Below are positions 24,038 through 55,378 of a stretch of DNA of 64,000 bases, piece after piece. The stretch is from the NCBI GenBank assembly GCA_025526995.1, contig JAHLKG010000033.1, positions 1 through 64,000 on the forward strand, read 5' to 3'. The notes under the pieces were generated by a model. The model did no database searches. It had not been told where the DNA came from and saw only the letters and a list, made by a program, of their open reading frames with translations. The position numbers were made by a program, and so were the translations under genes. The DNA is from Powellomyces hirtus. Lineage: Eukaryota; Chytridiomycota; Chytridiomycetes; Spizellomycetales; Powellomycetaceae. Position 1 is the stretch's first letter, and every line of letters starts with the position of its first letter.

Positions 24038-24042
24038 GGAAG

Positions 24043-24113: not shown

Positions 24114-24186
24114 ATAGCGAGCTGTACCGTAAATTAACAAAAGATATGCTCCTTGAGGTAGAGGACCTTATAGCGCGAGATCTCGG

Positions 24187-24413: not shown

Positions 24414-24649
24414 AAGTGTGATGCAGGGCATCTACCATGAGCACCATAGCCGGGAGGAAGCCGAGTGACATTGGACACAGCGGACGCATACAAAATGCTA
24501 CAAGGCTCAAAGGAGCACAGCGATGAGAAGGCAAGTACAGCGATGAGATTTTGGTACTGAATTTGATTACGGCCCGAGGGCCAGGCCCCAAGGGAGCAAC
24601 AGGACGAAATTATGTACAAGAAAAAGGGAAAAAGGGGGGGGGGACCCAA

Positions 24650-25797: not shown

Positions 25798-26072
25798 TGT
25801 AATGAGGCGTGGCTCGCCAACCTAAGCCTAGATACGCACCGGGAAGGGCCCCGCGCAAGATGGATGCTAGCGTCAGCATCCCGAAGGGTACTAGACATTA
25901 GGGATGGCCACGGATGGCCATCACGTGACCGGGACCGCCCCGCAGTCCAGAAGAAAAGTAGGAATACTCCGACGAGGGCGTATTCAAGACTTAGAGATCT
26001 TACAGTAGAATTACACATAGGGAATTCCAGAATAGAAGACTAGACTCTGGCAACGGACCTAGTATTATTACA
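25798..26072 (+). repeat. 3' LTR of gypsy F1
   Basis: A 275-bp LTR, TGTAATGAGG...TATTATTACA, preceded by purine tract AAGGGGGG. It is followed by TATTC, one half of the F1 TSD, and then B pol. It contains a CACGTG box. Bases 25,384-25,797 between cargo start and LTR hold an untranslated region similar to 47,640-48,087 of F2. Confidence 0.9.
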
Positions 26073-26077
26073 TATTC

Positions 26078-30630: not shown

Positions 30631-30744
30631 CTTGACGGTGTGCTCGGTACTTTCTTGGCACTTGAATTTGACGGAAGACTTGTAGTTTACAGGTTTTACG
30701 AAGGGAGAATGATTCGAATTTGACCGGTCTCAGGGCTCATAACC

Positions 30745-31111
30745 TATTGGAGATATTGGCATTTCCAGTACTTTATCGGAAATGCAGAGGATTGGCCGAA
30801 TTAGATGTGGCCTCCAGTATACTTCGTAAAGGGGGTTTACAGAGCTCTTCTGTGATGCAGATGACGATGTAGCGTTGTCAGATGCACGGAGATGTAATGT
30901 ATGTAAATGTATTTTTATGTCTTAAAGTCTTATCGGTAATGTCTCGCTTCGAGCGTTCTAATCTACTTTTTCTCCAATCACGTGATCCCACGTGATCCAA
31001 TTCAGCTCTTAGCGTTACCGGTATGATGGTCACGCGTTCTAGTCGGAGAATCCAAGTAAGGATCTAATGTAAGGACCAAACGTTGAGTACGCAAGTCTCA
31101 ACATTCCAATA
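30745..31111 (-). repeat. 5' LTR of B2
   Basis: A 367-bp LTR on the minus strand, followed on that strand by the GGTTATGAGCCCTG primer site (30,731-30,744). Its outer edge abuts CTTCC (31,112-31,116) and F1 pol. It pairs with 23,671-24,037 by diagnostic bases. Confidence 0.9.
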
Positions 31112-34100
31112 CTTCCAGTGTGGTCGTCCCCTTCACGTGTGCATACGGCTCCCACGTGTTCTGAGTGCTGTCGTAACCTGTCCACTTGACTAAGAACTGC
31201 TCGGTGTTCCTGTGCCATCTGGCATTTAGGATCTTGTCCACTTGGTAGGTCTCCTGACCGTCTTTGTCCTTCCCAGGCTCAGGCGGGGCGGTGACCTGTC
31301 TGTACGGGGTACCGCCCGGGTCATGGTAACGTCTCAGAATGCTGACATGAAAGACTGGGTGCAACCCGGTGAACTCTTTGGGTAGTTCGAGCTCGTAGGT
31401 GTCAGGATGCGGGCCCTTGCCGCATACTGTGAATGGCCCAATCCATTGTTCAGCCAGCTTTTTGTTCCTTGTGGTGACGCTGGTAATCGCGATACCCTCA
31501 CGATGGAGTAAGACCTTGTCACCCTCTCGGTATGCTTCCGTGTGCTTCTTGCGGTCGTAGTACTTTGCCTGCTGGTCCTGTGCATCTCGGAGCCGTTGCT
31601 GCACGATGCGACTCACATCGGCGAATTCCTTAACCCGTCTCTCCACGGCGGTTCGTGCCGATTGCCTTATCATCTCTCCGGGGTTAGGTGCTACCCATTG
31701 GTTCGGTACCCGGGGAACGCGGCCTAGGTCAATCTCGAAAGGGGATAGTCCCGTCGACGTCTGCGGCGTTCGGTTGTAGTTGTACTCGAGTGTGGGGAGT
31801 AAACTCTTCCAGTTGGAGCCGGCATAGTCGAGAAAGGGGCCCATGATTCCCTTGATCGTCTTGATGGCGTTCTCCGCCTTGCCGTCGGTCTGTTGGTGTC
31901 GTGCCGACGAGAGTTCTTGCTTGACGTCGAGTGCCCGCATGAGGTACCGCCAGAATTCTGATAGCCACTTGGGGTCCCAATCGCTCACAATGGTGTGGGG
32001 TAACCCCGTGTGGCGAAATGCCTGTTCCAGAAAGAGTTGAGCCGTCTCCTGAGCTGTAGCGCGTGTGTTAGTTGGTAGGAGTATCACGCGGCATGAAAGG
32101 TAGTCGACAATGAGGAGTACGGTGTCTGCCGTCTTGGTCAGTCTCTCGCCGGTGTGGTGCGGAGGGTTCTTCATCACGTCGGGCTCTACCAGAGGTTCCC
32201 CCCCCTTAGAGCCTGACGTGGGGAAGAATATATCCATGCCGATTTGTTGCCAACGGGCGTCGGGGATCGGTAAGCTGCGGAGGAAACCGATCGGCGCAGT
32301 TCGCTTGTGACGTTGGCAGGTAGGGCAGGTGCGGACATATTGGTACACATCACGCTCCATGTGAGGCCAATAGTACGACTCCAGAAGTTTGGCGAGCGTT
32401 TGTTGGACACCGGAGTGACCACCGTTCGTGAGGGAGTCGTGATGAATCTGAAGGAGTGGCCCCCGCAAGCTGTCGGGGACGTACCGACGGTCATGGTACA
32501 TCAAGAAGCGGTGCGGAGGGGAGTCCACTGTCCGGAATCGGCGTGCATGGCCGGATAGGTTCTCCGGTGGACTGTTGATGGTTAGTAAGATGTTTTGGCC
32601 GAAATCATCCAATGCGAGTGCTTGGGTCCAGTCCGCATCGGTTGGCATGTGCGTCGTGACGGGCTTCTCCGTCTGCACGATGGCGGTGACCACGTCGATC
32701 TTGGCCTGGCAGGTTGCACACTTGGGGGCGTAAGTCGGGTCGCAACTGAGGAAGTCGGCGATCGAATTCCATGTGCCGGGGAGGTATTCCACTGAGAAAT
32801 CGAACTGTTGGAGGAACTCGACCCAGCCTGCTTGGCGACGTGACAGGTGGGGTTGTTCCTGGAGGTAGATCAGGGATTTGTGGTCAACAAACGCGCGGAA
32901 TGGGCGGCCGATGAGGTAATGGCGGTTGGCGCGTATGGACTTGACTAATCCCAGTAGTTCTTGTTCATGCACGGGGTATCGAGTCTCGGCGGGTTGCATC
33001 TTGCGGGAGTAGTATGTCACCGGGCGAAGTTGCGGAAGGTTGGCTAAGCCCGATTTGGTGGTTGGTAGTGGGTGAGGGTAAGGGAAATCCCCTTTGGCTG
33101 GCTGTGCCAGCCATCCGCCGTAGGCGTAGCCCGATGCGTCCGTGAACAAGTAGGTGTCGAGCGCCGGGTCGAAGTACGCTAGGGTGGGTGCCGAGGAGCA
33201 TAATTCTTTTAAGCAATTGAACGCTTGATCTTCCTCGTCACCCCACTGCCATGGGCGGTTGCCGGATTGCAAGTTCGTTAGTGGCAGGGCAATCTGTGCA
33301 TACTCGGGAATGTATTCCTTGACGTAGTTGACGAGGCTCATGAAGCTAAGGAGCTCCAGGGAGTTGGTCAGGCGAGGCCGTTCCCGGACCGTGGTCACCT
33401 TGGAGGGGGCGATACTCAGGCCATCCCTGCCGACTTGGTGGCCGCAGAACTCGACTTTGTCAACCGCCCATTGACATTTGCTGGGTTTGACGTGAAGGCG
33501 ATGTTCCGCCAGGGTCTTGAGAACCTCGTCGACGTGCTGAATGTGCGAACTCATGTTGGTGCTGAATATGAGAATATCGTCGAGGTATGAGATCACATAA
33601 GCGTCGTATTTGTCGCCCAAGAGTTTGTTGGTTAGTCGCTGGAATGTAGCAGGTGCATTAGTTAAGCCGAAAGGTAGAACATTGTATTCGAAATGCCCAA
33701 AACATGTTCGGAACGCTGTTTTCTCCCTATCTTCTGGTCGAATCATGATGCAGTGATACGCGTCGCGGATGTCGATTGCGGTAAATACCCGCATGTTGAC
33801 AAGCCTGTCGCACAGTTCCGAGAGGTTCGGAAGTGGCGTGGCATCCTTGTGGGTCACCTTGTTCAGTGCCCGGTAGTCAATGCAGCAGCGTAAGCCGCCG
33901 TCCTTCTTTGGGGCAAATAGGACGGGCGCGCCCCATGGGCTGCGAGAGTGTGAGATCCAACCCTTGTCCATTAAGCGCTGCATCTGCCGGCCGAGCTCGT
34001 CCAATTCGTCAGGGCTCAAATGCCGGAGTGGCTGCATCACGGGCTTCGAGCCGGGTTTGAGCCAAATGGTGAAATTGTCCTCGCCTCGGTCCGGAGGCAA

Positions 34101-34970
34101 GCCTGACTGCTCGGTGAATAGCGTCGTGACGTATTTCTCTAAGGTCGGTCGGAGTGGGTGGTCGGCCGGCAGTGCATCTAGCGGGTCCTCTTGATCTGCC
34201 GTCTTGGCTTCGGCGTTGGTGTGGCGGCGTTCCTCCAAGATTGCCCTTTTCTTGGCGTCGACCGTCCGTACGAATTGAGCCTCTACGACTGGAATTGCAT
34301 CTACGATGTGTACCTCAAAGACTCCAGTGATCTCGCCCTTCTTCATCAAGCGTTTCCATTGCTTGGCCGTGTAGATTCCTTCTGCATTGAGTGCTGGCTT
34401 CGCTGGCTGGAATCTGCGGGGCCGTACCTCTCGTGGGGAGAGTAGACGGGCGGCGCACGCGGACGGTGCTTCCCAGTGGCGGTTGGTCGATTTGGCTCGA
34501 AGGCTGAGGGTCTGGCCGTCGTGATAGAACGTCATCGTTGGGAAGCCCTCTTGGTCGAAAAGTCCTCGGACGTCCAATCCCAATATGAATGGTAAACCGA
34601 GTATGACATCGACCCTGATCGGTGCGACCATGAACGGTACGGTGTCTTCCCGGTAGGTAATCTTCTCTTCGGTGAACACCGCGAGGTCCCCACAGGTCAT
34701 CTTCGTTGCACCGTAGTTTCCCGCTCTATCGCCTAATCGGACCTCCAGCGGGGTTGGAGAGGTGTAGGTCCGGAGGCCGTGCTTGGCTGCCCAAGTGTCG
34801 CTGATGATCAGGGTGTTACACCCAGTGTCGATTAGGATGCGGGCAAAGTGCCCTTGTATCTTCCCGTGAACCACAAATGTCTTCCTGTGGATGCGGGGTC
34901 CCGGCCTGTCCGTGGGGTTCTTGTCTTGCATCCGGGGTTGGGGTACTGAGACGGTGCAAACGTTCAGCAC
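31112..34970 (-). CDS. Gypsy F1 pol (protease to chromodomain), C-terminus cut by B2
   Basis: A single long frame of nearly 1,290 codons. Protease LIDTGCNTL lies near 34,830, RT with YLDDILIFS near 33,580, RNase H (TDASGYAYGGW; RYPVHEQELLGL), H2C2 integrase with D-D-E (HQQTDGKAEN near 31,880) and the start of a C-terminal chromodomain (FLVKWTGYDS..NTWEPY). It overlaps the gag end (34,964) in another frame, so gag-pol is joined by a frameshift as in many gypsy elements. B2 cuts the frame at 31,112; the last 24 codons are at 24,043-24,113. Otherwise it looks intact. Confidence 0.9.
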
Positions 34971-36175
34971 CCGGGGCGAAAATCCGAGCTGTTGACGGAG
35001 CCCCCGTCGCTGACCACGTCGTCCCCGGGCTCTTCGGTGATCTCTACAGGGGCGGCGAACGTTCTATGCCCACCGGTCTGACTTCTACCTGCTGAGCACC
35101 CACGGGCATAGTGCCCCTTGCCTCCGCAGTTGAAACAATCGTTGCGTTCACGACGTTCATTATAGGTGATACGCTCATGGTCTGAGATCCCTTGGTGGTT
35201 GTCCCTGCCGCGCATGGGACGACCTGAGCCATAGGGGGTGTGGCGTCCCCTTTCTCGTGCTTGGTAGTTCCCTCGATGTACCTGAGCCGGCTGGACTGCA
35301 GCGTACTGACGTCTCCTTCCGTCGGAGGTTACCCGCGCAACATCGTCCGCATAGCCTCGAATCCTGTAGCATAGTAGAGCTTTTTTCTGTAGCTCGGTGA
35401 TCGGGATCTCGGCGCCATTATTCCTCATGATTGCGGCATAGCAGTGGTCCTGAATGCGCTGGCCGACATGGTTGGTCAAGAATCCCGTTAAGAAATAGTC
35501 ACGCTCTTGCCTTGGGGTAAGCCGCTCCTTGTTGTCGAGCGTCGCGATCTGGGCCCGAAGGGTATTGAACTTGGCGATATACTCCGAGATGCTATTAGTG
35601 AAAACCAGCGACTTCATCTTTGCTTCTGCGGTGTTTTGTAAGTTGGCGGGGTAGAAGCGGACGCGGAGGATCCTCGTGAATTCTTCCAATGTCGTGGGCT
35701 GGTCGCCGGCATCTCTGAGCATTTGCCACCACTCGTCGGCGGTTTCCTTGAGGTACCCCGAAATGTGGTCGACGTCCCGGTGGTCCGTCCTGAAGTCGGT
35801 TGCCTCAGTGTAGCGCGTGGGGACCTTCAAGAACTCATCGACCTTCGACACCATTTCTTCACTGTTCCCTTTTCCGTCAAAGTGTGTCAGCTGCTTGCGA
35901 AGGTTCTCGCGGCGTTCCTTCTTGGCTTGCATTCATGCGCGGTTTTCTTCCGCCAGGATGATGTCGACGTGCAGTGTTGCAACCGCTGGTTGGACTGGAG
36001 TCGGAATCCTTGAGAGAAGGGCTTCGAAGCGGGCCTCTCCCATTGCGATCTGCTCCTGCAGTAGACGTTGGGTCTCCGCCAATTGTGCAGCCAACATTGC
36101 GACGGGGTTGTCGGTCGGTGTGTCGACTTCGGGTTCTCCTACTGCAATTGGGCTGTTCCTGGTGCTACGTGCCAT
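34964..36175 (-). pseudogene. Gypsy F1 gag, one TGA
   Basis: The ATG at 36,175 starts MARSTRNSP. A TGA (35,933-35,935) replaces the CGA codon kept in F2, then the frame runs on to 34,964. It holds the capsid core (about 35,300-35,930, with WWQML and RILRVRFYP typical of Ty3 capsids) and a CCHC knuckle CFNCGGKGHYARGC near 35,100. This copy retains the capsid that F2 lacks. Confidence 0.88.
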
Positions 36176-36203
36176 TGTTGTCGTCTACGGGGTGGTGCTA
36201 CCA

Positions 36204-36479
36204 TGTAATAATACTAGATCCGTTGCCAGAGTCTAGTCTTCTATTCTGAAATTCCCTATGTCTCATTCTACTGTAAGATCTCTAAGTCTTGAATACACCC
36301 TCGTCGGAGTATTCCTCACTTTTCTTCTGGACCGCGGGGCGGTCCCGGTCATGTGATGGCCATCCGTGGCCATCCCTAATGTCTAGTACCCTTCGGGATG
36401 CTGACGCTAGCATCCATCTCGCGTGGGGCCCTTCCCGGCGCGTATCTAGGCTTAGGTTGGCGAGCCACGCCTCATTACA
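36204..36479 (-). repeat. 5' LTR of gypsy F1
   Basis: A 276-bp LTR on the minus strand followed by primer site TGGTAGCACCAC (36,192-36,203). Flanked by GAATA (36,480-36,484), the TSD half that continues into B1 pol. About 4% different from its partner at 25,798 by eye. Confidence 0.9.
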
Positions 36480-39769: not shown

Positions 39770-41815
39770 ACCCCATACCAACGCTGGTTTGGGACCCCTG
39801 CCAATGTATCGAACCTCCGCACCATCTGGAGCGAGGCCTATATGCATCAACCTGTGCGCCGTCGCACACACCGCAAGCTTGGAGCTTGCGCTGTCGGACC
39901 GTTCCGACTAGTGGGATATCACCCCACTAAACAAGGCAACTATTGCCCTTATAATGCATCGACCGATTCGATCATCGACGCACAAGATGTCACAATCAAC
40001 AAGGCTGATTACATCAGCCCTGTCGCTCAGAGAGACACCACTCCCGAATATGTGGTTGAGCGCATCTTGCTCTCTAGCAACGGCGAAGGGGGAGAGCAAT
40101 TCCTGGTCAAGTGGCTTGGCTACGACAAACCAACATGGGAACCCCTCGGCAACGTCAAGGACTCAGAGGCCCTGATGCGATTCACCGGAATCGAAGATGA
40201 CGGCACACCCGTAATCGCCGAACTGCATGCCGCATGCAGCACTGACATTGACGAGCCCGCCACTTACCAGGCGGCAATCAACTCGCCGTACGTGAGAGAG
40301 TGGAAACAAGCGATCGACGCTGAACTCTCATCTCACCGCACTAATAAGACGTGGAACACGGATACCATGCAAACACCGCCCGGCACTCACCTTGTTGATT
40401 CTAAATGGGTCTTCAAAGTCAAACGCAACGCCAATGGTTCCATCAAGAAGTTCAAAGCCCGCCTCATCGCCCGAGGCTTCACGCAGCGTGAAGGCATTGA
40501 CTTCAACAAAACGTACGCGCCCGTCATCAAGTTTAACACCTTGCAGGTGCTACTCACGCTTGCCGCTAAGCTCGACCTTCACGTCCATCAGATGGACGTC
40601 ATCACCGCATTTCTCAACGGAGATCTCGACGTAGAGATCTGGATGCGGCTCCCCGCTGGCATCGCTGACGACATCGTCAAACTACGCCGTTCCCTTTATG
40701 GCCTTAAACAATCGCCGCGCCTATGGAACAAGGTTCTTGACTCCTTCCTTCAACAGCTCGGGTTCTCAGTATCAGAATTCAACACCGTGCTCTACATTAA
40801 GCGGACTGACAACACGAAGATCCTGATTGTTGCCATCTACGTGGATGACCTCACGATTTTTGCATCAGACCTTGATGACCTGCTCACTCTCAAATCCGCA
40901 CTTGCCAAACGCTTCAAGATGGAGGACATGGGGGAGATCCCTTTCCTTCTCGGTCTTCAGATTACGCGCGACCGGTCAAAGCGATGCGTTACCATTGGCC
41001 AACAGAAGTACATCAAAGACATGATTGACAAGTTTAACCTTAACGGCATGCAGCCGCATCACATCCCAATGGACCCGAACTTACATCTTAATGCGAACAA
41101 TGGAGCCAACGCCCTCGACACATCAGGAATCAAGGAATATCAGTTGATCATTGGAACGCTAATGTATCTGATGTTAGGGACTCGCCCCGACCTGGCCTAC
41201 TCAGTCTCTCGCTTATCCCAGTTTCTGGCGGCACCGACAGCCGCACACATGACGGCCGCAAAGAAGGTTTGCGCTTACGCAAACACAACTAGTGATCTCT
41301 CTCTTGTCTTCAAAGATGGGGGAGATATCGTTGGATACTCAGATGCCGACTATGCACGCTGCACGGACACGCGCCGCTCAACCTCTGGCTATGTCTTCAT
41401 GCTTAACGGAGCCACCATTTCATGGAAGTCACAACGTCAAAAATCAACGGCGTTATCCACAGCAGAAGCAGAATACATTGCACTCGCGGAATGCGCAAAG
41501 GAAGCACTTTGGATCCAGGGTCTCCTATCTGAACTGTCAGCAACGGAGCAGACAGCAGTTCCCATCTATGAGGACAATCAGGCCGCCATCAAGCTTGCTG
41601 CCAATCCGACGCATCACCAACGAACCAAACACATCGATGTCCGCTATCACTTTCTGCGAGACCTCATTGGTAACGAGCGCATTCACCTACAGTACATTGA
41701 GTCCAAGCTCATGCTTGCTGATGCCTTGACAAAACCACTACCTCGACCATTACTTGACGATCTGCGACATCGAACTGGACTCCGAAAAAAATCAGATTAT
41801 GCTAAATTTAGTTGA
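39770..41815 (+). CDS. Copia C pol, 3' half: chromodomain-RT-RNase H, open
   Basis: This continues the integrase frame broken at 12,805 and stays open for about 680 codons to TGA 41,813-41,815. A chromodomain (FLVKWLGYDKPTWEPLG) lies near 40,040-40,160. RT has KARLIARGF, QMDVITAFLNGDL, LYGLKQSPRLW and YVDDLTIF near 40,840. RNase H has YSDADYA near 41,340, STAEAEYIAL and HQRTKHIDVRYHFLRD, with the DALTKPLP end near 41,730. The absence of stops contrasts with the broken gag-integrase half. It overlaps the antisense RING gene by 8 bp at the 3' ends. As it stands it is a fragment, not an independent gene. Confidence 0.9.
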   Translation, partial: TPYQRWFGTPANVSNLRTIWSEAYMHQPVRRRTHRKLGACAVGPFRLVGYHPTKQGNYCPYNASTDSIIDAQDVTINKADYISPVAQRDTTPEYVVERILLSSNGEGGEQFLVKWLGYDKPTWEPLGNVKDSEALMRFTGIEDDGTPVIAELHAACSTDIDEPATYQAAINSPYVREWKQAIDAELSSHRTNKTWNTDTMQTPPGTHLVDSKWVFKVKRNANGSIKKFKARLIARGFTQREGIDFNKTYAPVIKFNTLQVLLTLAAKLDLHVHQMDVITAFLNGDLDVEIWMRLPAGIADDIVKLRRSLYGLKQSPRLWNKVLDSFLQQLGFSVSEFNTVLYIKRTDNTKILIVAIYVDDLTIFASDLDDLLTLKSALAKRFKMEDMGEIPFLLGLQITRDRSKRCVTIGQQKYIKDMIDKFNLNGMQPHHIPMDPNLHLNANNGANALDTSGIKEYQLIIGTLMYLMLGTRPDLAYSVSRLSQFLAAPTAAHMTAAKKVCAYANTTSDLSLVFKDGGDIVGYSDADYARCTDTRRSTSGYVFMLNGATISWKSQRQKSTALSTAEAEYIALAECAKEALWIQGLLSELSATEQTAVPIYEDNQAAIKLAANPTHHQRTKHIDVRYHFLRDLIGNERIHLQYIESKLMLADALTKPLPRPLLDDLRHRTGLRKKSDYAKFS

Positions 41816-42662: not shown

Positions 42663-42941
42663 TGTAACGTCAAAGGAAGCTTTGATAGTTGATAGTAATA
42701 AATAGTGTGTATTATTGTGTGTTGTAAGGTAACAAGCGGAAAAAGGCGACCAGCGGCTGACAGCTTTATATAATGCGTGTCAGGGTGGCGCACATATAAT
42801 TTATTTGGAAGGCGCTTTATTGCCTATGAGTCAGGAGTCATGTGTATCACCGATGAACGGGTGGCCAGCCCGAACAAAGGATCGCGTATAACGTAATCAG
42901 AAACTCACGAAAAAGTATAAGAATATGAGGTTTCCCCGACA
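42663..42941 (-). repeat. 3' LTR of gypsy G2
   Basis: Reads TGTCGGGG...GACGTTACA on the minus strand, after purine tract GAGGGAGG. Between it and the pol stop (42,942-43,151) is an untranslated stretch with three copies of a GGTCGGTTCTTGCGTCGCC-like motif (about 43,038, 43,120 and 43,160, the last reaching into the pol end). Confidence 0.9.
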
Positions 42942-43151
42942 CCTCCCTCAGACCCTGAGGAAGCATCATAGATGAATGTGAAGGGGATGAATAGAAACGG
43001 AGAGCTCATGTTCATTTTAGACTGTTGACACAGTGCTCAGTTCTTGCGTTGGCGCGCGATGTTTGTGTATGCGACAGAGGCGTCCCTCGTGTTGAAGTGT
43101 TTGTGTGTGTGTATATAGGTCGGTTCTTGCGTCGCCGCGCATGTGGTTTTG

Positions 43152-46100
43152 TTATAGGTCAGTTCTTGCGTCGCCGCGCGTGATGAGAGGAGAGACGAGG
43201 CAAAGCCAATCCGTCTTTGTTGAGTAGTGATGAGGTTTATCTCTTCTTTGTACGTGGCTGAATTGCCAGAGAGGATGGGCTGTTCGCCATTGTTGGTATG
43301 CAGGTGTTTGTCGGAGTTCAGACTCAGGTTCCCATGTAGGATCGGCCCATCCTGCCCATTTGACCAAGAGGTTTCGCTTATGACGGCGTTCATCAATGAT
43401 GTCTTTGACAACCCATTCTTGTTCTCCACGAACTTTGATTGGTTCGGGTGGTTGTTCGACTTCGCGTTGTGGATACTGGTCTATTGCGTGAGGGCGTATG
43501 ATATCAACGTGGAAGACAGGCCAAATGCCACTAATCTTTGAAGGCGAGAGGTCGAGTTCGTAGGTGTCAGGATGATCACCTTTGGCGATGACTTTGTAGG
43601 GTCCAATCCATATAGTAGAGAATCGAGGGCCTCTTCTTACGTCAACCTCGAGGTCTATACCCTTGCAATTGAGGTCGACGAGATCTCCGATATTGTAAGC
43701 AATAGGAGTTCGGCCTTTGTCATGTTGTCGGGCATATTCATCTTGTGCTCGACGCAGGTTTTCGCGTATGATTCGGGCTATCTCTTCTTGTCCCTTATGG
43801 TATCTTTTGAGCTCGGCCTTGTCGACTCCGCGTAAACGAAGTTCTTGTCCTTCTAGGAGTGGATTCCATCCAGGTAAGATGACTGTGCAGCCAAGGTCTA
43901 CTTCGAATGGTGTCAGGCCTTCATATTCACTTCTAGGGGCAGTGTTGAAGGCGAACTCAACAAGCGGGAGTAGCTTCTTCCAATTGCTCTTATTGTAGTT
44001 GAGATACTGCTTAAAGATTCTCTTCAGTGTTTGAATGACCCGTTCAACTTTCCCATCAGTTTGCTGGTGTCGAGCCGTTGCGAATTCATGTTTAACGCCG
44101 AGTAAGATATCGAAAGCAAGGAAAAAATCTGAAAGTGCTCGAGGTTCGCAGTCCGTAACAAAGACTTTTGGGGTATCGACGTATTTCCATACTCGATCCA
44201 GAAAAACGGCAGCAAGTTCTTTACCGCCAATGTTTTTATTGACAGCTGAAAGAATAGCACGTCCTGATAGATAATCGATACAGGCAAGACATGCTTCATC
44301 TCCAATGGAGAAGATGTCAAATCCAATTGTACGCCATCTCCCCAACGGTACAGGAAGTGGTCGTAGAAATCCGTAGCAGCAATGACCGGGTTTAAACTGT
44401 CAACAGGATTTACATGTTCCGACATACTTCATGACGTCTTGTCTAACGTTGGGCCAATAATAATCGACAAGGATTCGGGCAAAAGTTTTCTTGACGCCGA
44501 GATGGCCTCCGGTAGCTAAATCATCATGGAATTGCCGCAGTACTTTTGGACGTAAACTTTCAGGTACATAGAGGCGTCCTTCATGTCGAGCGATTCCATC
44601 TTGAAAAGTGTACCGTCGTTCTCTTGCAGTCTTTTCGTGATCGGGTTTCTGGCAGATCTCTTTGAGGTATTCAGAATAAGGATCCGCAGCTAAAGCTTGT
44701 TTCCATTCTTCGATAGAATATGTTGGCGTTGTGCAAAGATCTGCTGTTGTGCCGACTATAGGGGGAATGCCATCCATCATGTTGTTGACCTGAGTATGCA
44801 TATCGACACGTCTTTGACATTCGACACAACGTGGAGCATAAATAGCACTTTGGGAGAGAATGTCCGCAATATGATTACACCTCCCTGGAATGTACTGAAT
44901 TGTAAAATCGTATTCTTGTAGAATCTCGACCCATCGAGCTTGTCTTCGGCTAAGGTGAGGTTGTGTTTGGATAAATTCTAAGCCCTTGTGATCGCTGAAG
45001 CACCGAAACGGTCGTCCAACCAGGTATGGTCTATTAGCAACAAGCATCTTGACTAATGCGAGTAATTCTTGTTCATGGGTCGGATACCGAGTCTCAGCAC
45101 CCTTCATCTTGCGAGAATAAAAAACGACAGGTTGGAGGCGAGGTAATTGTTTCCATTCGCCAACAAGACGAGGAAGATTCGTTGGTATGGTCTCATCGTC
45201 ATATGGTTGTCCGATCCATCCAGCAATGGCGTAGCCAGACGAATCTGTGTAGACGTAGATAGGTTTGCTTTCATCAATAGTTGCTAAAGCTGGTGCATTG
45301 ATGAGTGCTTCCTTCAGTTTCTGGAATGCTTGTTCTTGATCGGCTTCCCATTTGAACTTGACTTTCGCTGATTGAATGTTAGATAACGGTAAAGCAATGT
45401 TGGAATAGTCTTTGACAAAATCGAGAAAGTAGTTGGCGAGGCCAAGGAATGATTGAACTCATTTCGTAGATGTAGGTCTAGGCCAGTCCTTGATCACTTG
45501 GATCTTCGAAGGGGCGATGCGAATTCCATTTCCGCCCAAGACGTGTCCACACCATTCAACTTCGGGCACGGCCCAGACACATTTAGAAGGTTTGACGTAA
45601 AGTTGATGTTCTTTGAGCTTCTTGAGGACTAGGTCTACGTGTTTCTGATGTTCCTCCAATGTCTTTGAGAAAATGAGGATATTGTCCAGGTATGAGTTAA
45701 CGAAGTCGTCGTAGTCTTTGTGGAAAATTTTGTTCATTAATCGTTGGAATGCAGCACGAGCATTGGTTAAGCCGAAAGGCATGACGAGGTATTCGAAATG
45801 ACCAAATCTTGTACGTATGGCGGTCTTTTCCCGATCTTGTTTTCGGATGAGCAAACGATGATAGGCTTCCTTGATATCAATGAGACTGAAGTATTCGCAT
45901 CCTTGTATTCGGTCGCGCATTTCGCGGATGTTTGGAAGAGGTGTTCGGTCTTTCTTTGTGACGGAGTTGAGACCTCGATAGTCCCAACAAATACGTAGTC
46001 CTCCATCTTTCTTCTTAGCGAAGACAACACTAGCTCCCCATGGACTTGAGGAGTGCTGTATCCATCCTTTCTCGAGCATCAGTTGAATTTGCTTTTTCAG

Positions 46101-47364
46101 CTCGGCTAATTCTTCCTTATTCATGTGGCGGAGAGGTTGCCAGACAGGTTCAGCGCCTTCGACGAGTTCAATTTGAAAATTATCTTCTCCCCAATCAGGT
46201 GGTAAGCCTTGCGGTTCCTTGAATAGAATATCAACATACTTTTCCAGAGAATCTTTCAAAAGTTCAGGGTTTCCCTTGAACCGTTCAGGATCCTCCGAAA
46301 TTTCGTTGAGAGCCAATCGGCATACAGTATTGTCTTTGAATTTATTTTGTCGCCAGGCTTTGTTGAATTGCTTAGATGTAACTTCGATCATTTGGATATT
46401 GCGATAAGCAGCGGCTTTGGTGAATACAGATTGTTTCGTAGATGGAGTAGTGCCAAAGTGAGAGAGGCAATTCCAAGGGAGAAAGTCTAATGGTTGCCAT
46501 TTTCGTGATGTTCGTTCGCATTTGATGGTGACGGAGAGAGATGCGTTTGGTATCTGTGAATGATTAGTAAAACGGAGAATAGGTTGTTTTTCGTGTAAGT
46601 ATTGTTCAGCATGAGTAAAGAGGTTCCAGAAAGGTGTTCCGATGATCACATCGTATATAAGATCGCTGACGAGCCATGGGAGTTGTCCAACCATAAAAGG
46701 CGAACGAGATTCAATGTTCCAGAGTTCTAACGGTTCGGAGACAACGGTGTCTAAGAGCATTTGAGATTTTTTGTCGGCCAGAGTTATTTGTTGTGGTTCG
46801 GTAGGCCTAGTTTTGAACTTATGCTTTTTGACGAAGGTCTTGTTGAGAAACATTCCCGTTGCTCCACTATCAAATAATGCTCGGGCAAATTTCTTTCCAA
46901 TACGGCAATGTGCAATCCATAATCCGGTGGCCAAAGGTTTCCACACATCTTGGACGGTAGGTAGATATGGAGGCCGAACAGAGCTACCGATGGGCTCTAA
47001 CGACCGTTGAGAAAACCCACTTGTTGTTGTTGTGGATTGACCGCGGCCTCTTGATTGGTAACCTTGTCTAGGATAATTGTACGGCAGCCTATAGGTAATG
47101 AGGTTACGACTAACGCCAGGTGGATATGGAATGAGGTTGAGATTGTTGAAGTCGTCCGTGAGGTTATCAGTATCGTCTATTCCGGTTATTTGTGGGCTGG
47201 AATAAGGACTATATCGTTGTTGGCTGCTCGACCGCCTTGGCCACGACCGCTTCCACAACCGCGACCGGATCGCCGCACCCACGAGAGGACGTATTGAGAG
47301 GATTATTGTCAGAAAATCCATGAACGACAAAAGCTTGTCAAGCAGCTTCTATGGCTTGCTGAAT
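43152..47364 (-). pseudogene. Gypsy G2 gag end and pol, two nonsense codons in pol
   Basis: From 47,330 down to 43,152 one frame holds a basic gag tail (SRGRG), protease LFDSGATG near 46,870, RT with a YLDNILIFSK box (Asn for the second catalytic Asp) near 45,690, RNase H, H2C2 integrase and C-terminal chromodomain (LLVKWAGWADPTWEPE near 43,340). Stops lie at 45,459-45,461 and 44,400-44,402; both are GGA to TGA compared with G1. The YLDN change alone would inactivate RT. Between 47,331 and the F2 insertion at 47,364 the gag frame is shifted and has a TGA. Confidence 0.9.
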
Positions 47365-47639
47365 TGTAATAATACTAGGTCCGTTGCCAGAGTCTAGTCT
47401 TCTATTCGGGAACTCCCTATGTCTAATTCTACTGTAAGATCTCTAAGTCTTGAATGCACCTTCGTCGGAGCATTCCTACTATTCTTCTAGGCCGCAGAGC
47501 GGCCCTGGTCACGTGATGGCCATCCGTGGCCATCCCTGAGGTCTAGTACCCTTCGGGATGCTGACGCTAGCATCCATCTCGCGCGGGACCCCTCCCGACG
47601 CGTGTCTAGGCTTAGGCTGGTGAGCCACACCTCATTACA
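47365..47639 (-). repeat. 3' LTR of gypsy F2
   Basis: 275 bp, TGTAATGAGG...TATTATTACA on the minus strand, after purine tract AAGGGGGG (47,640-47,647 region). About 10% different from the F1 LTRs. Bases 47,640-48,087 are the putative promoter and 5' leader of the cargo gene, with a TTTAAAAGG near 47,984 and CA/TACA microsatellites at 48,044-48,081. Confidence 0.9.
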
Positions 47640-48087
47640 CCCCCCTTGGATTCGCGACTATCTCTTAGGCCCGAATCTCTTCAGCGAGGCGAAGCTTGCC
47701 TAAGCCGGGCGGCGGCGGGTTAACGGATGCTGACGTGGTTGTGGGAAGATGAGGCTGGGGAGGCGGCCCTGGCGCGGGTCGCGTCGCGGTAGTCTCCGAC
47801 GGGTAGTCTCTGCCCTTTGTGGTGCACGAAATCGTCGGAAAGTCTATTTCTCTCTTCGCAGGGGCCCTAGATGAATCACGAGTAGCTTCCTCCATGCGGA
47901 TTTCGATAAGTAACATCTGCTGCGCTCCGTAGGGGATGAAACACTAACACCTGAATTTCCGAGCGTTCCCAAGCAGGTCGAGCCTTTAAAAGGTACTGCC
48001 CGTTGAATCTCCCCCCTCTTGCTCTTCTTTCCTTTGTAGCCCGACACACACACATCACACACACATACATACATACATACAAACAAC

Positions 48088-48811
48088 ATGGCCGACGTCG
48101 CCAACAACTCTCCTCTCCCCTCCAACACCACCACCGCGGGCAAGCGCCGGCCCACCCAACAACTCGCAAAGGGCGCGACCAAGCGGGCCCAGCCCGCCCG
48201 GGTAAGTAGGGGTCGGTGCTCATCCTCGGCTGTGGCAACTCGTCTCATGTTCCCCGTCTTCCCTTGTTGTCTCCAGGACCCCTCGGTCCATGAAAAGTCC
48301 ACCCCCGAGAGGTCGGCCGACTTGCCCGCCTGCTGGAAGTGCCGCCACTTCCGCAAAAGCAAGATGTTTATGTCTGAATGCCACCATCTGGTGTGCCGGC
48401 CCTGCATCGTGGCGGCGGCCGACAACACGGTAAGTTCCCTTTCGCTGAGAGGCGGCCTGATGTCTTCCTAACGGTATAGTTCCCTTGTTCCTTTGCTTTC
48501 CAGAACAACGGCCCTCAGGGCCAGTTGACGTGCGGCGCCCCCCACTGCGACCGGGTCCTCTTCTTTGCGGCCATCCCCGCCGGGTGTCAGTTCGCTGGCT
48601 GCAACCATGTCGGAGCGGACCTCCGCATGTTTCCATGCAACCATCTCCACTGCATGGGCCACGTCCGCGCGTAAGTAGTACTCTTCGGCCTGCTGCTGTC
48701 TTACCTGACTAACTCAGCTCTCTTCGCAGCGAGATGAACGTGGCAAATTACACCCCCCTCCGGTGCGGGTTGGGCGACCGGTGCCAGTTCTCCTTCACCA
48801 AGATTGGTTGA
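48088..48811 (+). CDS. F2 antisense cargo gene: double RING-like zinc protein, 4 exons
   Basis: Exons 48,088-48,201, 48,277-48,429, 48,504-48,670 and 48,730-48,811. All three introns (59-75 bp) start GTAAGT and end CAG. The product is 171 residues. A basic head is followed by cluster 1 (C57, C60, C73, H75, C78, C81, C99, C104) and cluster 2 (C117, C122, C134, H136, C139, H142, C157, C163). The introns survive because the gene is antisense to the genomic RNA, so splicing of the element transcript cannot remove them. It reads away from the 3' LTR. It is homologous to 24,650-25,383 with identical intron positions but only about 50-55% identity, while the pols around them are about 98% identical. 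The match to RING is by ligand spacing only. Confidence 0.8.
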
Positions 48812-49046
48812 TTAGTCTCCCCCCCCCCTCCTTCTTGTACATACTTTCACTTGTTGTCTGTTGCTCCTTCGGGGCCTGGCCTTCGGCCCGTATAATCAAA
48901 TTCAGTACCACAATCTCATCGCTGTACTTGCCTTCTCATCGCTGTGCTCCCTTGAGTCTTGTGGCATTTTGTATGCGTCCGCTGTGTCCAATGTCACTCG
49001 GCTTCCTCCCGGCTATGGTGCTCATGGTAGATGCCCTGCATCACAC

Positions 49047-49275
49047 TTCCCCGTTGGGAAGACCGTCCAGCGGTTCCCCGGCCATCGTCCAACGATGCCG
49101 GTATCTCATCTAGTGAGGTCTACTGCCTCGCAGTCTTCGGCTCATCGCCCAGCGATCCCGGCGTCTCGCCCAGCGAGATATGCTGCCCAGCAGCCTTCGG
49201 CCATCGTCCAACGATGCCGGCATCTCGCCCAGCAAGGTATGCTGCCCAGCAGCCTTCGGCCATCGTCCAACGATG
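49047..49275. repeat. Array of short hairpins in the F2 3' region
   Basis: Reverse complement of the array at 24,187-24,413, over 95% identical by eye. Most stems are kept; loops read CCA on the plus strand. It sits between the stops of the cargo gene (48,811) and pol (49,349). Confidence 0.88.
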
Positions 49276-49348
49276 CCGAGATCTCGCGCTATAAGGTCCT
49301 CTACCTCAAGGAGCATATCTTTTGTTAATTTACGGTACAGCTCGCTAT

Positions 49349-52300
49349 CTAGGTTCTCTTACGTCGCCTGGCTGCTAGCCTTTGGCCGCGGTCCTCTCCG
49401 GGGTGCTCCCGGAGCCATTCTTCCAGTGTGGTCGTCCCCTTCACGTGTGCATACGGCTCCCACGTGTTCTGAGTGCTGTCGTAACCTGTCCACTTGACTA
49501 AGAACTGCTCGGTGTTCCTGTGCCATCTGGCATTTAGGATCTTGTCCACTTGGTAGGTCTCCTGACCGTCTTCGTCCTTCTCGGGCTCAGGTGGGGCGGT
49601 GACCTGTCTGTACGGGGTACCGCCCGGGTCATGGTAACGTCTCAGAATGCTGACATGAAAGACTGGGTGCAACCCGGTGAACTCTTTGGGTAGTTCGAGC
49701 TCGTAGGTGTCAGGATGCGGGCCCTTGCCGCATACTGTGAATGGCCCAATCCATTGTTCAGCCAGCTTTTTGTTCCTTGTGGTGACGCTGGTAATCGCGA
49801 TACCCTCACAATGGAGTAAGACCTTGTCACCCTCTTGGTATGCTTCCGTGTGCTTCTTGCGGTCGTAGTACTTTGCCTGCTGGTCCTGTGCATCTCGGAG
49901 CCGTTGCTGCACGATGCGACTCACATCGGCGAATTCCTTAACCCGTCTCTCCACGGCGGTTTGTGCCGATTGCCTTATCATCTCTCCGGGGTTAGGTGCT
50001 ACCCATTGGTTCGGTACCCGGGGAACGCGGCCTAGGTCAATCTCGAAAGGGGATAGTCCCGTCGACGTCTGCGGCGTTCGGTTGTAGTTGTACTCGAGTG
50101 TGGGGAGTAAACTCTTCCAGTTGGAGCCGGCATAGTCAAGAAAGGGGCCCATGATTCCCTTGATCGTCTTGATGGCGTTCTCCGCCTTGCCGTCGGTCTG
50201 TTGGTGTTGTGCCGACGAGAGTTCTTGCTTGACGTCGAGTGCCCGCATGAGGTACCGCCAGAATTCTGATAGCCACTTGGGGTCCCGATTGCTCATGATG
50301 GTGTGGGGTAACCCCGTGTGGCGAAATGCCTGTTCCAGAAAGAGTTGAGCCGTCTCCTGAGCTGTAGCGCGTGTGTTAGTTGGTAGGAGTATCACGCGGC
50401 ATGAAAGGTAGTCGACGATGAGGAGTACGGTGTCTGCCGTCTTGGTCAGTCTCTCGCCGGTGTGGTGCGGAGGGTTCTTCATCACGTCGGGCTCTACCCG
50501 AGGTTCCCCCCCCTTAGAGCCTGACGTGGGGAAGAATATATCCATGCCGATTTGTTGCCAACGGGCGTCGGGGATCGGTAAGCTGCGGAGGAAACCGATC
50601 AGCACAGTTCGCTTGTGACGTTGGCAGGTAGGGCAGGTGCGGACATATTGGTACACATCACGCTCCATGTTAGGCCAATAGTACGACTCCAGAAGTTTGG
50701 CGAGCGTTCGTTGGACACCGGAGTGACCACCGTTCGTGAGGGAGTCGTGATGAATCTGAAGGAGTGGCCCCCGCAAGCTGTCGGGGATGTACCGACGGTC
50801 ATGGTACATCAAGAAGCGGTGCGGAGGGGAGTCCACTGTCCGGAATCGGCGTGCATGGCCGGATAGGTTCTCCGGTGGACTGTTGATGGTTAGTAAGATG
50901 TTTTGGCCAAAATCATCCGATGCGAGTGCTTGGGTCCAGTCCGCATCGGTCGGCATGTGCGTCGTGACGGGCTTCTCCGTCTGCACGATGGCGGTGACCA
51001 CGTCGATCTTGGCCTGGCAGGTTGCACACTTGGGGGCGTAAGTCGGGTCGCAACTGAGGAAGTCGGCGATCGAATTCCATGTGCCGGGGAGGTATTCCAC
51101 TGAGAAATCGAACTGTTGGAGGAACTCAACCCAGCCTGCTTGGCGACGTGACAGGTGGGGTTGTTCCTGGAGGTAGATCAGGGATTTGTGGTCAACAAAC
51201 GCGCGGAATGGGCGGCCAATGAGGTAATGGCGGTTGGCGCGTATGGACTTGACTAATCCCAGTAGTTCTTGTTCATGCACGGGGTATCGAGTCTCGGCGG
51301 GTTGCATCTTGCGGGAGTAGTATGTCACCGGGCGAAGTGGCGGGAGGTTGGCTAAGCCCGATTTGGTGGTTGGTAGTGGGTGAGGGTAAGGGAAATCCCC
51401 TTTGGCCGGCTGCACCAGCCATCCGCCGTAGGCGTAGCCCGATGCGTCCGTGAACAAGTAGGTGTCAAGCGCCGGGTCAAAGTACGCTAGGGTGGGTGCC
51501 GAGGAGCATAATTCCTTTAAGCGATTGAACGGTCGATCTTCCTTGTCACCCCACTGCCATGGGCGGTTGCCGGATTGCAGACTCGTTAGGGGTAGGGCAA
51601 TCTGTGCATACTCGGGGATGTATTCCTTGACATAGTTGACAAGGCCCATGAAGCTAAGGAGCTCCAGGGAGTTGGTCGGGCGAGGTCGTTCCCGGACCGC
51701 GGTCACCTTGGAGGGGGCGATACTCAGGCCATCCCTGCCGACTCGGTGGCCGCAGAACTCGACTTTGTCAACCGCCCATTGACATTTGCTGGGTTTGACG
51801 TGAAGGCGATGTTCCGCCAGGGTCTTGAGAACCTCGTCGACGTGCTGAATGTGCGAACTCATGTCGGTGCTGAATATGAGAATATCGTCGAGGTATGAGA
51901 TCACATAAGCGTCGTACTTGTCGCCCAAGAGTTTGTTGGTTAGTCGCTGGAATGTAGCAGGTGCATTAGTTAAGCCGAAAGGTAGAACATTGTATTCGAA
52001 ATGCCCAAAACATGTTCGGAACGCTGTTTTCTCCCTATCTTCTGGTCGAATCATGATGCAGTGATATGCGTCGCGGATGTCGATCGCGGTAAATACCCGC
52101 ATGTTGACAAGCCTGTCGCACAGTTCCGAGAGGTTCGGAAGTGGCGTGGCATCCTTGTGGGTCATCTTGTTCAGTGCCCGGTAGTCAATGCAGCAGCGTA
52201 AGCCGCCGTCCTTCTTTGGGGCAAATAGGACGGGCGCGCCCCATGGGCTGCGAGAGTGTGAGATCCGACCCTTGTCCATTAAGCGCTGCATCTGCCGGCC

Positions 52301-53286
52301 GAGCTCGTCCAATTCGTCAGGGCTCAAATGCCGGAGTGGCTGCATCACGGGCTTCGAGCCGGGTTTGAGCCAAATGGTGAAATTGTCCTCGCCTCGGTCC
52401 GGAGGCAAGCCTGACTGCTCGGTGAATAGCGTCGTGACGTATTTCTCTAAGGTCGGTCGGAGTGGGTGGTCGGCCGGCAGTGCATCTAGCGGGTCCTCTT
52501 GATCTGCCGTCTTGGCTTCGGCGTTGGTGTGGCGGCGTTCCTCCAAGATTGCCCTTTTCTTGGCGTCAACCGTCCGTACGAATTGAGCCTCTACGACTGG
52601 AATTGCATCTACGATGTGTACCTCGAAGACTCCAGTGATCTCGCCCTTCTTCATCAAGCGTTTCCATTGCTTGGCCGTGTAGATTCCTTCTGCATTGAGT
52701 GCTGGCTTCGCTGGCTGGAATCTGCGGGGCCGTACCTCTCGTGGGGAGAGTAGACGGGCGGCGCACGCGGACGGTGCTTCCCAGTGGCGGTTGGTCGATT
52801 TGGCTCGAAGGCTGAGGGTCTGGCCGTCGTGGTAGAATGTCATCGTTGGAAAGCCCCCTTGTCGAAAAGCCCTCGGGCGTCCAGCCCCAATATGAATGGC
52901 AAGCCCAGTATGGCATCGACCCTGATCGGCGCGACCACGAACGGTACGGTATCCTCCCAGTAGATGATCTTCTCCTCGGTGAACACCGAGAGGTCCCCAC
53001 AGGTCATCTTTGTTGCCCCGTAGTTTCCCGCTCTGTCGCCCCACCGGACCTCCAGCGGAGTTGGAGAGGTGTAGGTCCGGAGGCCGTGTTTGGCGGCCCA
53101 AGTGTCGCTGATGATCAGGGTGTTACATCCGGTATCGATTAGGATGCGGGCAAAGTGCCCTTGTACCTTCCCGTGGACCACAAATGTCTTCCTGTGAATG
53201 CGGGGTCCCGGTCTGTCCGTGGGGATCTTGTCTTGCATCCGGGGTTTGGGTACTGAGACGGTGCAAGCGTTCAGCACCCGGGACAA
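49349..53286 (-). pseudogene. Gypsy F2 pol, one frameshift in the protease region
   Basis: The N-terminal frame (53,286-52,840) has the protease LIDTGCNTL. A one-base loss near 52,860 shifts to the frame that stays open to 49,349: RT with YLDDILIFS near 51,880, RNase H, H2C2 integrase (HQQTDGKAEN near 50,190) and C-terminal chromodomain (FLVKWTGYDS..NTWEPY near 49,450-49,530) with a basic tail. It is about 98% identical to F1 pol. The pol start overlaps the gag end by about 16 bp in another frame. Confidence 0.9.
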
Positions 53287-53816
53287 AAATCCGAGCTGTT
53301 GACTGAGCCCCCGTCGCTGGCCGCCTCGTCTCCGGACCCTTCGGTGATCTCTACAGGGGCAGCGAACGTCCTATGCTCACCGGTTTTACCTTTACTTGCT
53401 GGGCACCCACGGGCGTAATGCCCCTTGCCCCCGCAGTTGAAACATTCGTTGCGCTCACGGCGTTTGTCGTAGATGGTGTGCTCACGGCGTGAAATCCCTT
53501 GGTAGTTGTCCATACCGCATGTGGGACGACCTGAGCCATAGGGGGTGTGGCGTCCCCTTTCTCGTGCTTGCATTCGTGCGCGGTTTTCTTCCGCCAGGAT
53601 GATGTCGACGTGCGGTGTTGCAACTGCTGGTTGGACTGGAGTCGGAATCCTTGAGAGAAGGGCTTCGAAGCGGGCCTCTCCCATTGCGATCTGTTCCTGC
53701 AGTAGGCGTTGGGTCTCCGCCAATTGTGCAGCTAACATTGCGATGGGGTTGTTGGTCGGTGTGTCGACTTTGGGTTCTCCTACTGCCATTGGGCTGTTCC
53801 TGGTGCTACGTGCCAT
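53271..53816 (-). CDS. Gypsy F2 gag with in-frame capsid deletion
   Basis: A 181-residue open frame. It has the same N-terminus as F1 (coiled-coil AAQLAETQRLLQEQI), then jumps from residue ~84 to the basic region and CCHC knuckle CFNCGGKGHYARGC. About 225 residues, the capsid core, are missing compared with F1. The break is at GCTTG, which in F1 occurs at both deletion ends (about 35,257 and 35,930): a microhomology deletion that preserved the frame. F2 would need capsid from another copy. Confidence 0.88.
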   Translation of the reverse strand: MARSTRNSPMAVGEPKVDTPTNNPIAMLAAQLAETQRLLQEQIAMGEARFEALLSRIPTPVQPAVATPHVDIILAEENRARMQARERGRHTPYGSGRPTCGMDNYQGISRREHTIYDKRRERNECFNCGGKGHYARGCPASKGKTGEHRTFAAPVEITEGSGDEAASDGGSVNSSDFCPGC

Positions 53817-53844
53817 TGTTGTCGTCTACAGGGTGGTGCTACCA

Positions 53845-54119
53845 TGTAATAATACTAGGTCCGTTGCCAGAATCTAGTCTTCTATTCGGGAACTCTCTAT
53901 GTCTAATTCTACTGTAAGATCTCTAAGTCTTGAATGCGCCTTCGTCGGAGCATTCCTACCTTTCTTCTAGGCCGCGGAGCGGCCCTGGTCACGTGATGGC
54001 CATCCGTGGCCATCCCTGAGGTCTAGTACCCTTTGGGATGCTGACGTGAGCATCCATCTCGCGCGGGACCCCTCCCGATGCGTGTCTAGGCTTAAGCTGG
54101 TGAGCCACGCCTCATTACA
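53845..54119 (-). repeat. 5' LTR of gypsy F2
   Basis: 275 bp, followed on the minus strand by primer site TGGTAGCACCAC (53,833-53,844) and flanked by TGAAT (54,120-54,124). Differs from its partner at about 11 positions. Contains a CACGTG box. Confidence 0.92.
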
Positions 54120-54833
54120 TGAATGGTAATGGGTGCAGCAGCTGCGGCGGCGAGGTTTTGATTGATTTCGAAAGTATTGATTGCATTGTATAGATAGTGA
54201 CCGATGATAGGGTTCTTAAGGAGATCTGCTTTAAAAATACGAATAATATCAGCAGCAGGAATAGTAGCTTGTGTAGGATCAAGACGCAAAGCGGCATCAA
54301 GTTCATGACATTCATCTTGGAACTTTGTAACAAATTCTTCAAGTGAGTTCCCGAGGGCGAGATTGGTCAATCTGAGTTCAATTGCATTGCGAAGATTGCG
54401 AGGGAAGAATTCGGTAATGAGGGCTGTTTGAAAGGCCACCCATGTGGCAGGTGGTCCTGCGGCAGAAGTAGTGTTGTACCACTCAAGAGCGGTACCCTTG
54501 AGGTAGGATTGGAGGGTGCTAACGTAATCGGCCATGGGCAATGGTACGGCAGGAACTGCAGGAACAGGAGGAGGACCGACGACTGCAGGAATAGCAGGAG
54601 TAGCAAGAGCCCAATAAAAGTTACTGTGGGAAGTCAAAAACTCCTCTATCTTCTTAGCAGACTTGGTGCCATTGTATTCGGAGAGCTTAGCCTTTTGTGC
54701 GTCGAGAAGGGTCTTAGCTCGGGTTGAGGCGAGCGGAAGCTGCAGCAGCGACGACAGGAGCAGCGGCGATAACACCGGCTGTAATGGCAGCAACGATAGC
54801 AGCTTGTTAAGCGGCAGTAAGTGCAGGGGGCAT
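54120..54833 (-). pseudogene. Gypsy G2 gag, N-terminal part
   Basis: A capsid-like frame (54,793 downward) with AEYNGTKS-type start, Pro/Val-rich spacer, WYNTTSAAGPPATW and FFPRNLRNAIELRL, as in Ty3-type capsids. The likely start ATG (54,833-54,831) is followed by a stop after eight codons and the frame shifts near 54,720, so the N-terminus is broken. At 54,120 F2 interrupts it; the rest is at 47,364 downward. Confidence 0.8.
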
Positions 54834-54888
54834 GTTGTTCAATTGGAGTGATCATGGTTGATGGTGCTAGTGTGGAGTGGTGCTACCA

Positions 54889-55167
54889 TGTAACGTCAAA
54901 GGAAGCTTTGATAGTTGATAGTAATAAATAGTGTGTATTATCGTGTGTTGTAAGGTAACGAGCGGAGAAAGGCGACCAGCGGCTGACAGCTTTATATAAT
55001 GCGTGTCAGGGTGGCGCACATCTAATTTATCCGGGAGGCGCTTTATTGCCTATGAGTCAGGAGTCATGTGTATCACCGATGAACGGATGGCCAGCCCGAA
55101 CAAAGGATCACGTATAACGTAATCAGAAAATCACGAAAAAGTATAAGAATATGAGGTTTCCCCGACA
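54889..55167 (-). repeat. 5' LTR of gypsy G2
   Basis: 279 bp; followed on the minus strand by primer site TGGTAGCACCAC (54,877-54,888), identical to that of F. Flanked by GCTTG (55,168-55,172). Confidence 0.92.
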
Positions 55168-55378
55168 GCTTGCACATCCACTTTTCCTTCTTCTTCTTAG
55201 TTTAGATCTTCTTCTTCCCACCGGTTTACACTAAGAACAATCATACCATTGTCATTGAGAGTGTCAAGCTAGCTTCCCTCTGTTGCACTACACCTTAACC
55301 GAATCTACGCACAGCAGTTTCAAGTATTTACAAAAGGAGAATGATTTGAATTCGATTGGTGTTCTCAAGGTTATAACC

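Follow-up and report, generated by a model that had tools for sequence, protein, structure and literature searches.

A family of Ty3/Gypsy chromoviruses in the chytrid Powellomyces hirtus carries an accessory gene that runs antisense to the element, contains three introns and encodes a protein of 171-178 aa, in which a basic stretch near the N terminus is followed by two RING-like Cys/His clusters. The gene has been maintained by purifying selection during propagation of the family. We place the probability that it is a real, spliced-type and selected gene of the element at about 0.93. The analysis started from a 64,000-nucleotide stretch of contig JAHLKG010000033.1 (hereafter the window), which contains two copies of the element, F1 and F2, and was extended to the genome (29.26 Mb in 60 contigs).

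The carrier element

F2 occupies positions 47365-54119 on the minus strand. Its pol (49349-53101, minus strand) matches the Pfam domains for reverse transcriptase (RT), RNase H, the integrase zinc domain, SH3 and a C-terminal chromodomain, and its gag part (53271-53816, minus strand) matches a CCHC zinc knuckle; together with the LTRs, the pol domains identify F2 as a Ty3/Gypsy chromovirus. Part of pol is 91% and 79% identical to two P. hirtus proteins, in alignments that cover 67% and 75% of the query, respectively. The 3' LTR (47365-47639, minus strand; 275 bp, TGTAATGA...ATTATTACA) is 95.6% identical to the 275-bp 5' LTR (53845-54119, minus strand), which is followed by a TGGTAGC stretch that we take to be the PBS. 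A G-rich polypurine-like tract, CCAAGGGGGG on the element strand (47640-47649, minus strand), abuts the 3' LTR and is presumably the PPT. The insertion is bounded on the minus strand by a 5-bp target site duplication, ATTCA, at 47360-47364 after the 3' LTR and at 54120-54124 before the 5' LTR. These features surround the gene on both sides and bear out an earlier note on this DNA, which had placed it inside a gypsy element.

The gap between pol and the 3' LTR measures 1,709 bp in F2, compared with 207 bp in element B, the Gypsy element into which F2 is inserted (42663-55170; LTRs 42663-42944 and 54889-55170). The pol pieces of B are 36% and 60% identical to those of F. Between the gene and pol lies a segment (48812-49348, plus strand) with a tandem repeat of about 59 bp, which was seen as self-overlapping BLAST matches and varies in length between copies; from 48893 on, the segment is 98% identical between F1 and F2.

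The window also holds three Copia-type pol ORFs (RVT_2; 5161-6777, 21442-23631 and 39842-41815) with a Pfam chromodomain upstream of RT (E-values 3e-8, 7e-12 and 1e-7), preceded in the first two by an integrase SH3-like domain. Chromodomains are usually tied to Gypsy chromoviruses, and a possible chromodomain-bearing Copia lineage is worth a look. In a single ORF at 18757-21300, Ty3-type capsid/gag matches occur together with Pol_BBD and gag_pre-integrase domains.

Structure of the antisense gene

The gene spans 48088-48811 on the plus strand, antisense to F2 and between the pol stop and the 3' LTR, which is the position of an aORF-3R. The model proposed earlier (four exons, GT-AG introns, 171 residues and 16 Cys/His ligands in two clusters) was re-derived from the sequence by spliced translation. 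All parts lie on the plus strand. Exon 1 (48088-48201) provides the start codon and a Thr/Pro-rich beginning, shows codon-position bias and includes the basic stretch KRR...KR, which we take to be a possible bipartite NLS. Intron 1 (48202-48276; 75 nt, GTAAGT..CAG, phase 0) is open in frame and lacks a coding-like pattern of change. Exon 2 (48277-48429) holds ligands 1-6 of cluster 1; after intron 2 (48430-48503, 74 nt), exon 3 (48504-48670) supplies the final two ligands of that cluster and ligands 1-6 of cluster 2. Intron 3 (48671-48729; 59 nt, phase 2) has to be spliced out to reach the final two ligands of cluster 2, which are encoded in exon 4 (48730-48811) ahead of the stop. Exon 4 of F2 is atypical in length, since it is longer in all 46 other aligned copies, by 15 nt in 45 of them and by 33 nt in one.

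A TATA-like box, CCTTTAAAAGG (47983-47993, plus strand), precedes the gene and is, judging from its sequence, a candidate promoter element for it. Counted as an exact pattern, CCTTTAAAAGG is found in 29 of 47 copies and CCTTCAAAAGG in one, giving 30/47.

All three introns are kept in every one of the 47 aligned copies. This fits the earlier proposal that the antisense orientation lets introns survive retrotransposition: the sense genomic RNA would carry the antisense introns uncut, and the gene would be inherited with them. Intron 1 measures 75 nt in 46 of the 47 copies, and introns 1 and 2 are open in many of them, suggesting that an intron-retaining product is possible.

Copies across the genome

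Genome searches located at least 73 F2-like gene places, two of them only about 62% alike and several fragmentary, and at least 19 F1-like places. Of the 73 F2-like places listed, 47 were aligned and one more (L061) was read; of the 19 F1-like places, four were read (F1 of the window, L062, L063 and L064). An open frame is present in 37 of the aligned copies, all six splice sites in 38 and both in 30, while 17 are broken in the ORF or at a splice site. One of the open-frame copies, L007, has a shifted stretch in exon 1.

The copies sit in the element. An LTR lies upstream of the gene in 46 of the 47 copies, and the LTR, post-gene segment and pol end occur in the expected order in 44; in the other three (L010, L030 and L054) one flanking part is absent from the fetched stretch. 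Conversely, 40 pol 3' ends were scored from 99 candidates, and 33 have the gene on the other strand at a distance of no more than 3 kb (30 of the F2 type and three of the F1 type). The seven that do not adjoin it differ among themselves. In L065 (C1:127400-129900) the gene has been lost by a deletion that begins at roughly codon 10 and reaches the 3' flank, with the junction at short C-rich repeats; a second lies at C1:134633 on the same contig. Another Gypsy pol intervenes in L066 and L067, and other repeat sequence, resembling by eye the repeat family D4 of the window, in L068; one pol end lies less than 1 kb from a contig end and one is rearranged. The survey thus revealed neither F copies generally lacking the gene nor a single insertion with its own target site duplication, the two patterns that the earlier note had set against its proposal; L065 alone is read as a deletion. 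A single insertion or passenger is excluded by the 33 of 40 pol ends with the gene and the 44 of 47 copies with element flanks.

Selection on the gene

Selection was analysed in 38 copies; nine were dropped for shifted frames, and among those kept, two carry a stop and seven have lost a splice site. Internal branches carry 72 replacement, 68 silent and 1 stop change, against 97.9, 41.0 and 2.1 expected from context-matched placement. The resulting omega is 0.44, and none of 1000 context-matched simulations was as low. On terminal branches omega is 0.86 and close to neutral, with 98/1000 simulations as low. The 3' end of pol, treated by the same method in 38 elements as a control, gave 0.42 on internal branches (0/1000) and 0.70 on terminal branches (13/1000), showing that the gene is conserved like another protein of the element. 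This is the usual picture for a gene of an element, with constraint during propagation and decay after insertion. Pooled pairwise omega among the 36 in-frame copies is 0.39 or 0.51, depending on the weight given to transitions. Furthermore, internal branches carry 73 amino-acid changes, counting one stop, and none of these affects any of the 16 ligands (P 0.0008); on terminal branches, 5 of 189 do (P 0.0003).

The constraint on exons is visible in the codon pattern only. Within the F2 type, the rate per site is no lower in exons than in introns (0.80-1.22 versus 0.78-1.01 changes per site), but every one of the four exons changes least at the second codon position; in exon 4 the fastest position is the first, not the third. 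An unspliced reading as the main product was rejected because the coding pattern seen in the exons is missing from introns 1 and 2 and because exon 4 holds the final two ligands, with the caveat that intron 3 is uneven by position (1.30, 0.30 and 0.74, with 19-20 sites per class) and that some intron retention may occur. A chance ORF is ruled out by the selection, by the conservation of the ligands and by an independent gene model, P0090.

The same data bear on whether the gene is a captured host gene that merely hitch-hikes without benefit to the element. Its host-type introns and RING-like look would suit such an origin, but the constraint on internal branches equals that on pol, and no copy outside the element occurred among the 52 of at least 92 gene places read with flanks, a survey that a distant host relative would escape. 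We regard hitch-hiking as very improbable, and favour a gene that is selected as part of the element.

The RING-like protein

The 16 ligands of the F2 protein are C57, C60, C73, H75, C78, C81, C99 and C104 in cluster 1, and C117, C122, C134, H136, C139, H142, C157 and C163 in cluster 2. Their spacings are C-x2-C-x12-C-x-H-x2-C-x2-C-x17-C-x4-C and C-x4-C-x11-C-x-H-x2-C-x2-H-x14-C-x5-C, respectively, so that each cluster presents eight Cys/His in the cross-brace order of a RING. The outer ligand pairs of RING fingers are usually x2, and wider pairs occur in the clusters here. In 20,000 shuffles of the protein, one relaxed RING pattern appeared in 28 and two appeared in none. A resemblance of the N terminus to the tail of histone H3 was considered and not retained.

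The profile comparison suggested by the earlier note gave no RING match above a curated Pfam cut-off. Cluster 1 resembles RING models below their cut-offs: the best Pfam match, PF00097, scored 16.4 bits against a curated cut-off of 21 and covered cluster 1 only, two other full proteins also fell below the Pfam RING cut-off, and cluster 2 alone matched nothing. We therefore call the protein RING-like only. A five-sequence profile found its best PDB match in the Polycomb RING of PCGF5 (E 0.013), followed by RING2 (E 0.15), again for cluster 1 only. The likeness to these Polycomb RINGs is weak and comes without a Polycomb context, and the last ligand pair is x4 here, where x2 is usual. AlphaFold2 models from one and three input sequences reached a mean pLDDT of 35 and 32 and were unusable.

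Reading these features together, we lean slightly towards a RING-like protein that works in the nucleus to the benefit of the element. As position and sequence suggest, a host-type promoter inside the element would transcribe the gene and the transcript would be spliced. With less certainty, the protein would be a trans-acting nuclear scaffold or ubiquitin ligase of the RING type, and the element might profit from the change that it makes to a protein of the host or of the element itself.

Two gene types in one backbone

The F1 version of the gene lies at 24650-25383 on the minus strand and encodes 178 aa in a spliced model of four exons (25383-25264, 25204-25052, 24975-24809 and 24746-24650). 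Its introns of 59, 76 and 62 nt occupy the same positions as those of F2 (75, 74 and 59 nt). The earlier note had reported the same gene in the same place in F1; the gene itself stands, with its four exons and intron positions, and the place calls for a qualification, because F1 is split by an inversion and the gene lies in the inverted 3' part (24038-26072). This part is separated from the rest of F1 (31109-36479), between two Copia copies in inverted orientation, whose arms flanking the F1 part (18718-23322 and 26072-30669) are 99% identical.

The F1 and F2 proteins are 54% identical (93/171) and share all 16 ligands (P 3e-5). At the DNA level, identity between F1 and F2 of the window is 62-71% in exons and 46-54% in introns, compared with 91% in the LTR, 98% in the post-gene segment and 100% over 76 bases at the pol end. 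Low identity sets in at about 47965, close to the TATA-like box, and ends at about 48865, beyond the gene stop. Likewise, the F1-type copies L064 and L063 match the F2 LTR (90% and 87%) and flanks (80-90%) over long stretches, while F2 gene DNA has at most short matches in them.

The contrast between exons and introns also bears on a role for the antisense transcript itself, which might tune copy number or feed small RNAs by pairing with the genomic RNA near its 3' end. The positions of the gene and of the sense genomic RNA overlap, and PMC7264820 discusses regulation by antisense RNA in elements of this kind. Introns that are barely alike between the types argue against a role at the RNA level, and the codon-specific constraint on internal branches, the lack of ligand changes there and the 16 of 16 ligands kept between the types favour the protein. 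We consider a role of the RNA itself improbable, and retain the encoded protein as the likely object of selection.

The pol ends do not follow the two gene types. Four F1-type pol ends (three fetched and that of the window) are scattered at different places among 38 F2-type ones in a tree built on at most 330 bases per element, a reading that does not draw on branch support. The types are no more distant from each other than copies of one type are, with a pol-end identity of 95.8% between the types, and 95.1% and 96.2% within them. Among relics with more diverged LTRs, L061 carries an F2-like and L062 an F1-like gene, suggesting that both gene lineages are old. The divergent gene block in nearly identical backbones (about 96% at the pol end) indicates that the cassette has apparently been exchanged. 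On the simplest reading, the exchange would have occurred between elements by recombination, with template switching as the obvious route, and two long-separated gene versions would have come to share one backbone in this way.

The coexistence of these types in one backbone could also be expected if the protein acted as a brake on its own element, through copy-number control or exclusion of relatives, with the two types as two specificities; the existence of L065, a gene-less deletion derivative, points in the same direction. Selection on the element alone would hardly keep such a brake. We therefore think this unlikely, if less so than a role of the RNA, and prefer a protein that helps the element.

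Public gene models and the MELD label

Two public gene models of P. hirtus correspond to the gene, both added by a profile search of proteins. P0090 (DFJ77DRAFT_512327; 178 aa) has the same spliced form as our F1-type model, and P0091 (DFJ77DRAFT_528235) agrees with F1 of the window through exons 1 and 2 into exon 3 and then differs. With a single sequence as the query, the sole match among 5.8 billion proteins was P0001, an 'oncoid' of Powellomyces chytrid fungus MELD virus 1, whose longest contig measures 21,205 bp. P0001 is the same gene read through introns 1 and 2 and ended at the start of intron 3. According to PMC11071296, nothing but short linear motifs defines the Oncoid class.

The name of P0001 raises the question of whether the gene belongs to the MELD DNA virus, and was picked up by the retrotransposon or merely adjoins it. 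Several observations disfavour this origin. Element sequence lies on both sides in 44 of 47 copies. Matches of the Pox_A32 type occur at five places in the genome, and of these C26 alone has a listed gene copy within 20 kb, with a pol 3' end beside that copy; 8.6 kb of the C26 island gave no significant match to the gene, F pol or F LTR. Moreover, P0001 runs through two introns and stops at the third. A scan of viral contigs found no relative. A search for the PF03175 polymerase had no match, and as its controls likewise had none it is uninformative. We consider a viral origin very improbable; most likely, the 'oncoid' label reflects a retrotransposon beside a viral island, which suggests that P0001, at present assigned to a DNA virus, belongs to a retrotransposon.

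The island (L072, C26:287000-295600) is virus-like in its own right: one of its ORFs is of the Dda-like helicase/HNH kind, and another, large ORF matched nothing. It lies near the Pox_A32-type match at C26:295663, and four further such places exist in the genome.

Comparison with known antisense genes

Antisense ORFs of plant elements, which the earlier note had named as precedent, are well matched in position. For fungi it had known of no RING example, and none emerged among the papers listed here; an antisense gene in a fungal Gypsy element as such does have a precedent. This is brtn of the Boty-like elements of Botrytis cinerea (section 5 of PMC7264820; also PMC8365987 and PMC4227169). Like the F gene, brtn belongs to a fungal Gypsy element with a chromodomain in gag-pol (PMC4227169) and is an additional antisense gene grouped with those between pol and the 3' LTR (PMC7264820, section 5). 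The parts of these sources that describe brtn mention neither a RING nor introns, whereas the F gene encodes a double RING-like protein, is interrupted by three introns and occurs in two types that can be exchanged; the comparison is one of descriptions. No protein named Botrytis was among the relatives of the F gene in the single-sequence and profile searches.

The aORFs of plant Retand-type elements (TRP28 domain; gene23 of Grande) are likewise antisense, placed between pol and the 3' LTR and conserved within families, and tandem repeats often occupy the same interval, as in F2 (PMC11963269). Nuclear localisation is reported there for the Grande antisense product. Neither PMC11963269 nor PMC7264820 contains the word 'intron'. 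The plant aORFs differ from the F gene in belonging to a non-chromovirus lineage and in encoding a TRP28 protein, not a RING-like one.

HBZ of HTLV-1 is spliced and encodes a bZIP protein. It resembles the F gene as an antisense accessory gene of a retroelement with a nuclear product (PMC11963269), and differs in belonging to an animal retrovirus and in having its antisense promoter inside the 3' LTR (PMC7264820). The MELD 'oncoid' P0001, which is the same gene under the same genus name, differs in its assignment to a DNA virus and in its unspliced reading. Among the titles and abstract openings listed in searches of open-licence papers, none mentions a RING gene carried by a retrotransposon of a fungus. 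As far as could be seen, the RING-like protein, the three conserved introns and the two exchangeable types set the F gene apart from known antisense ORFs.

We tentatively propose, as a doubtful but specific extension, that the gene may be an idiomorph-like accessory locus: two anciently separated antisense, intron-containing genes for a double RING-like nuclear factor would be swapped as whole transcription units between nearly identical elements, and would stay distinct because the two act on separate host targets or define separate exclusion groups. If this is true, a transposon would encode a factor of the ubiquitin pathway whose specificity is allelic.

What the antisense additional ORFs in LTR retrotransposons do is described as not known (PMC7264820, section 5; for TRP28 proteins, the abstract of PMC11963269). 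In the F family, the Cys/His clusters have a recognisable arrangement, the gene has three introns, selection can be measured over dozens of copies and two exchangeable versions exist, which makes protein function, antisense expression and cassette exchange directly testable.
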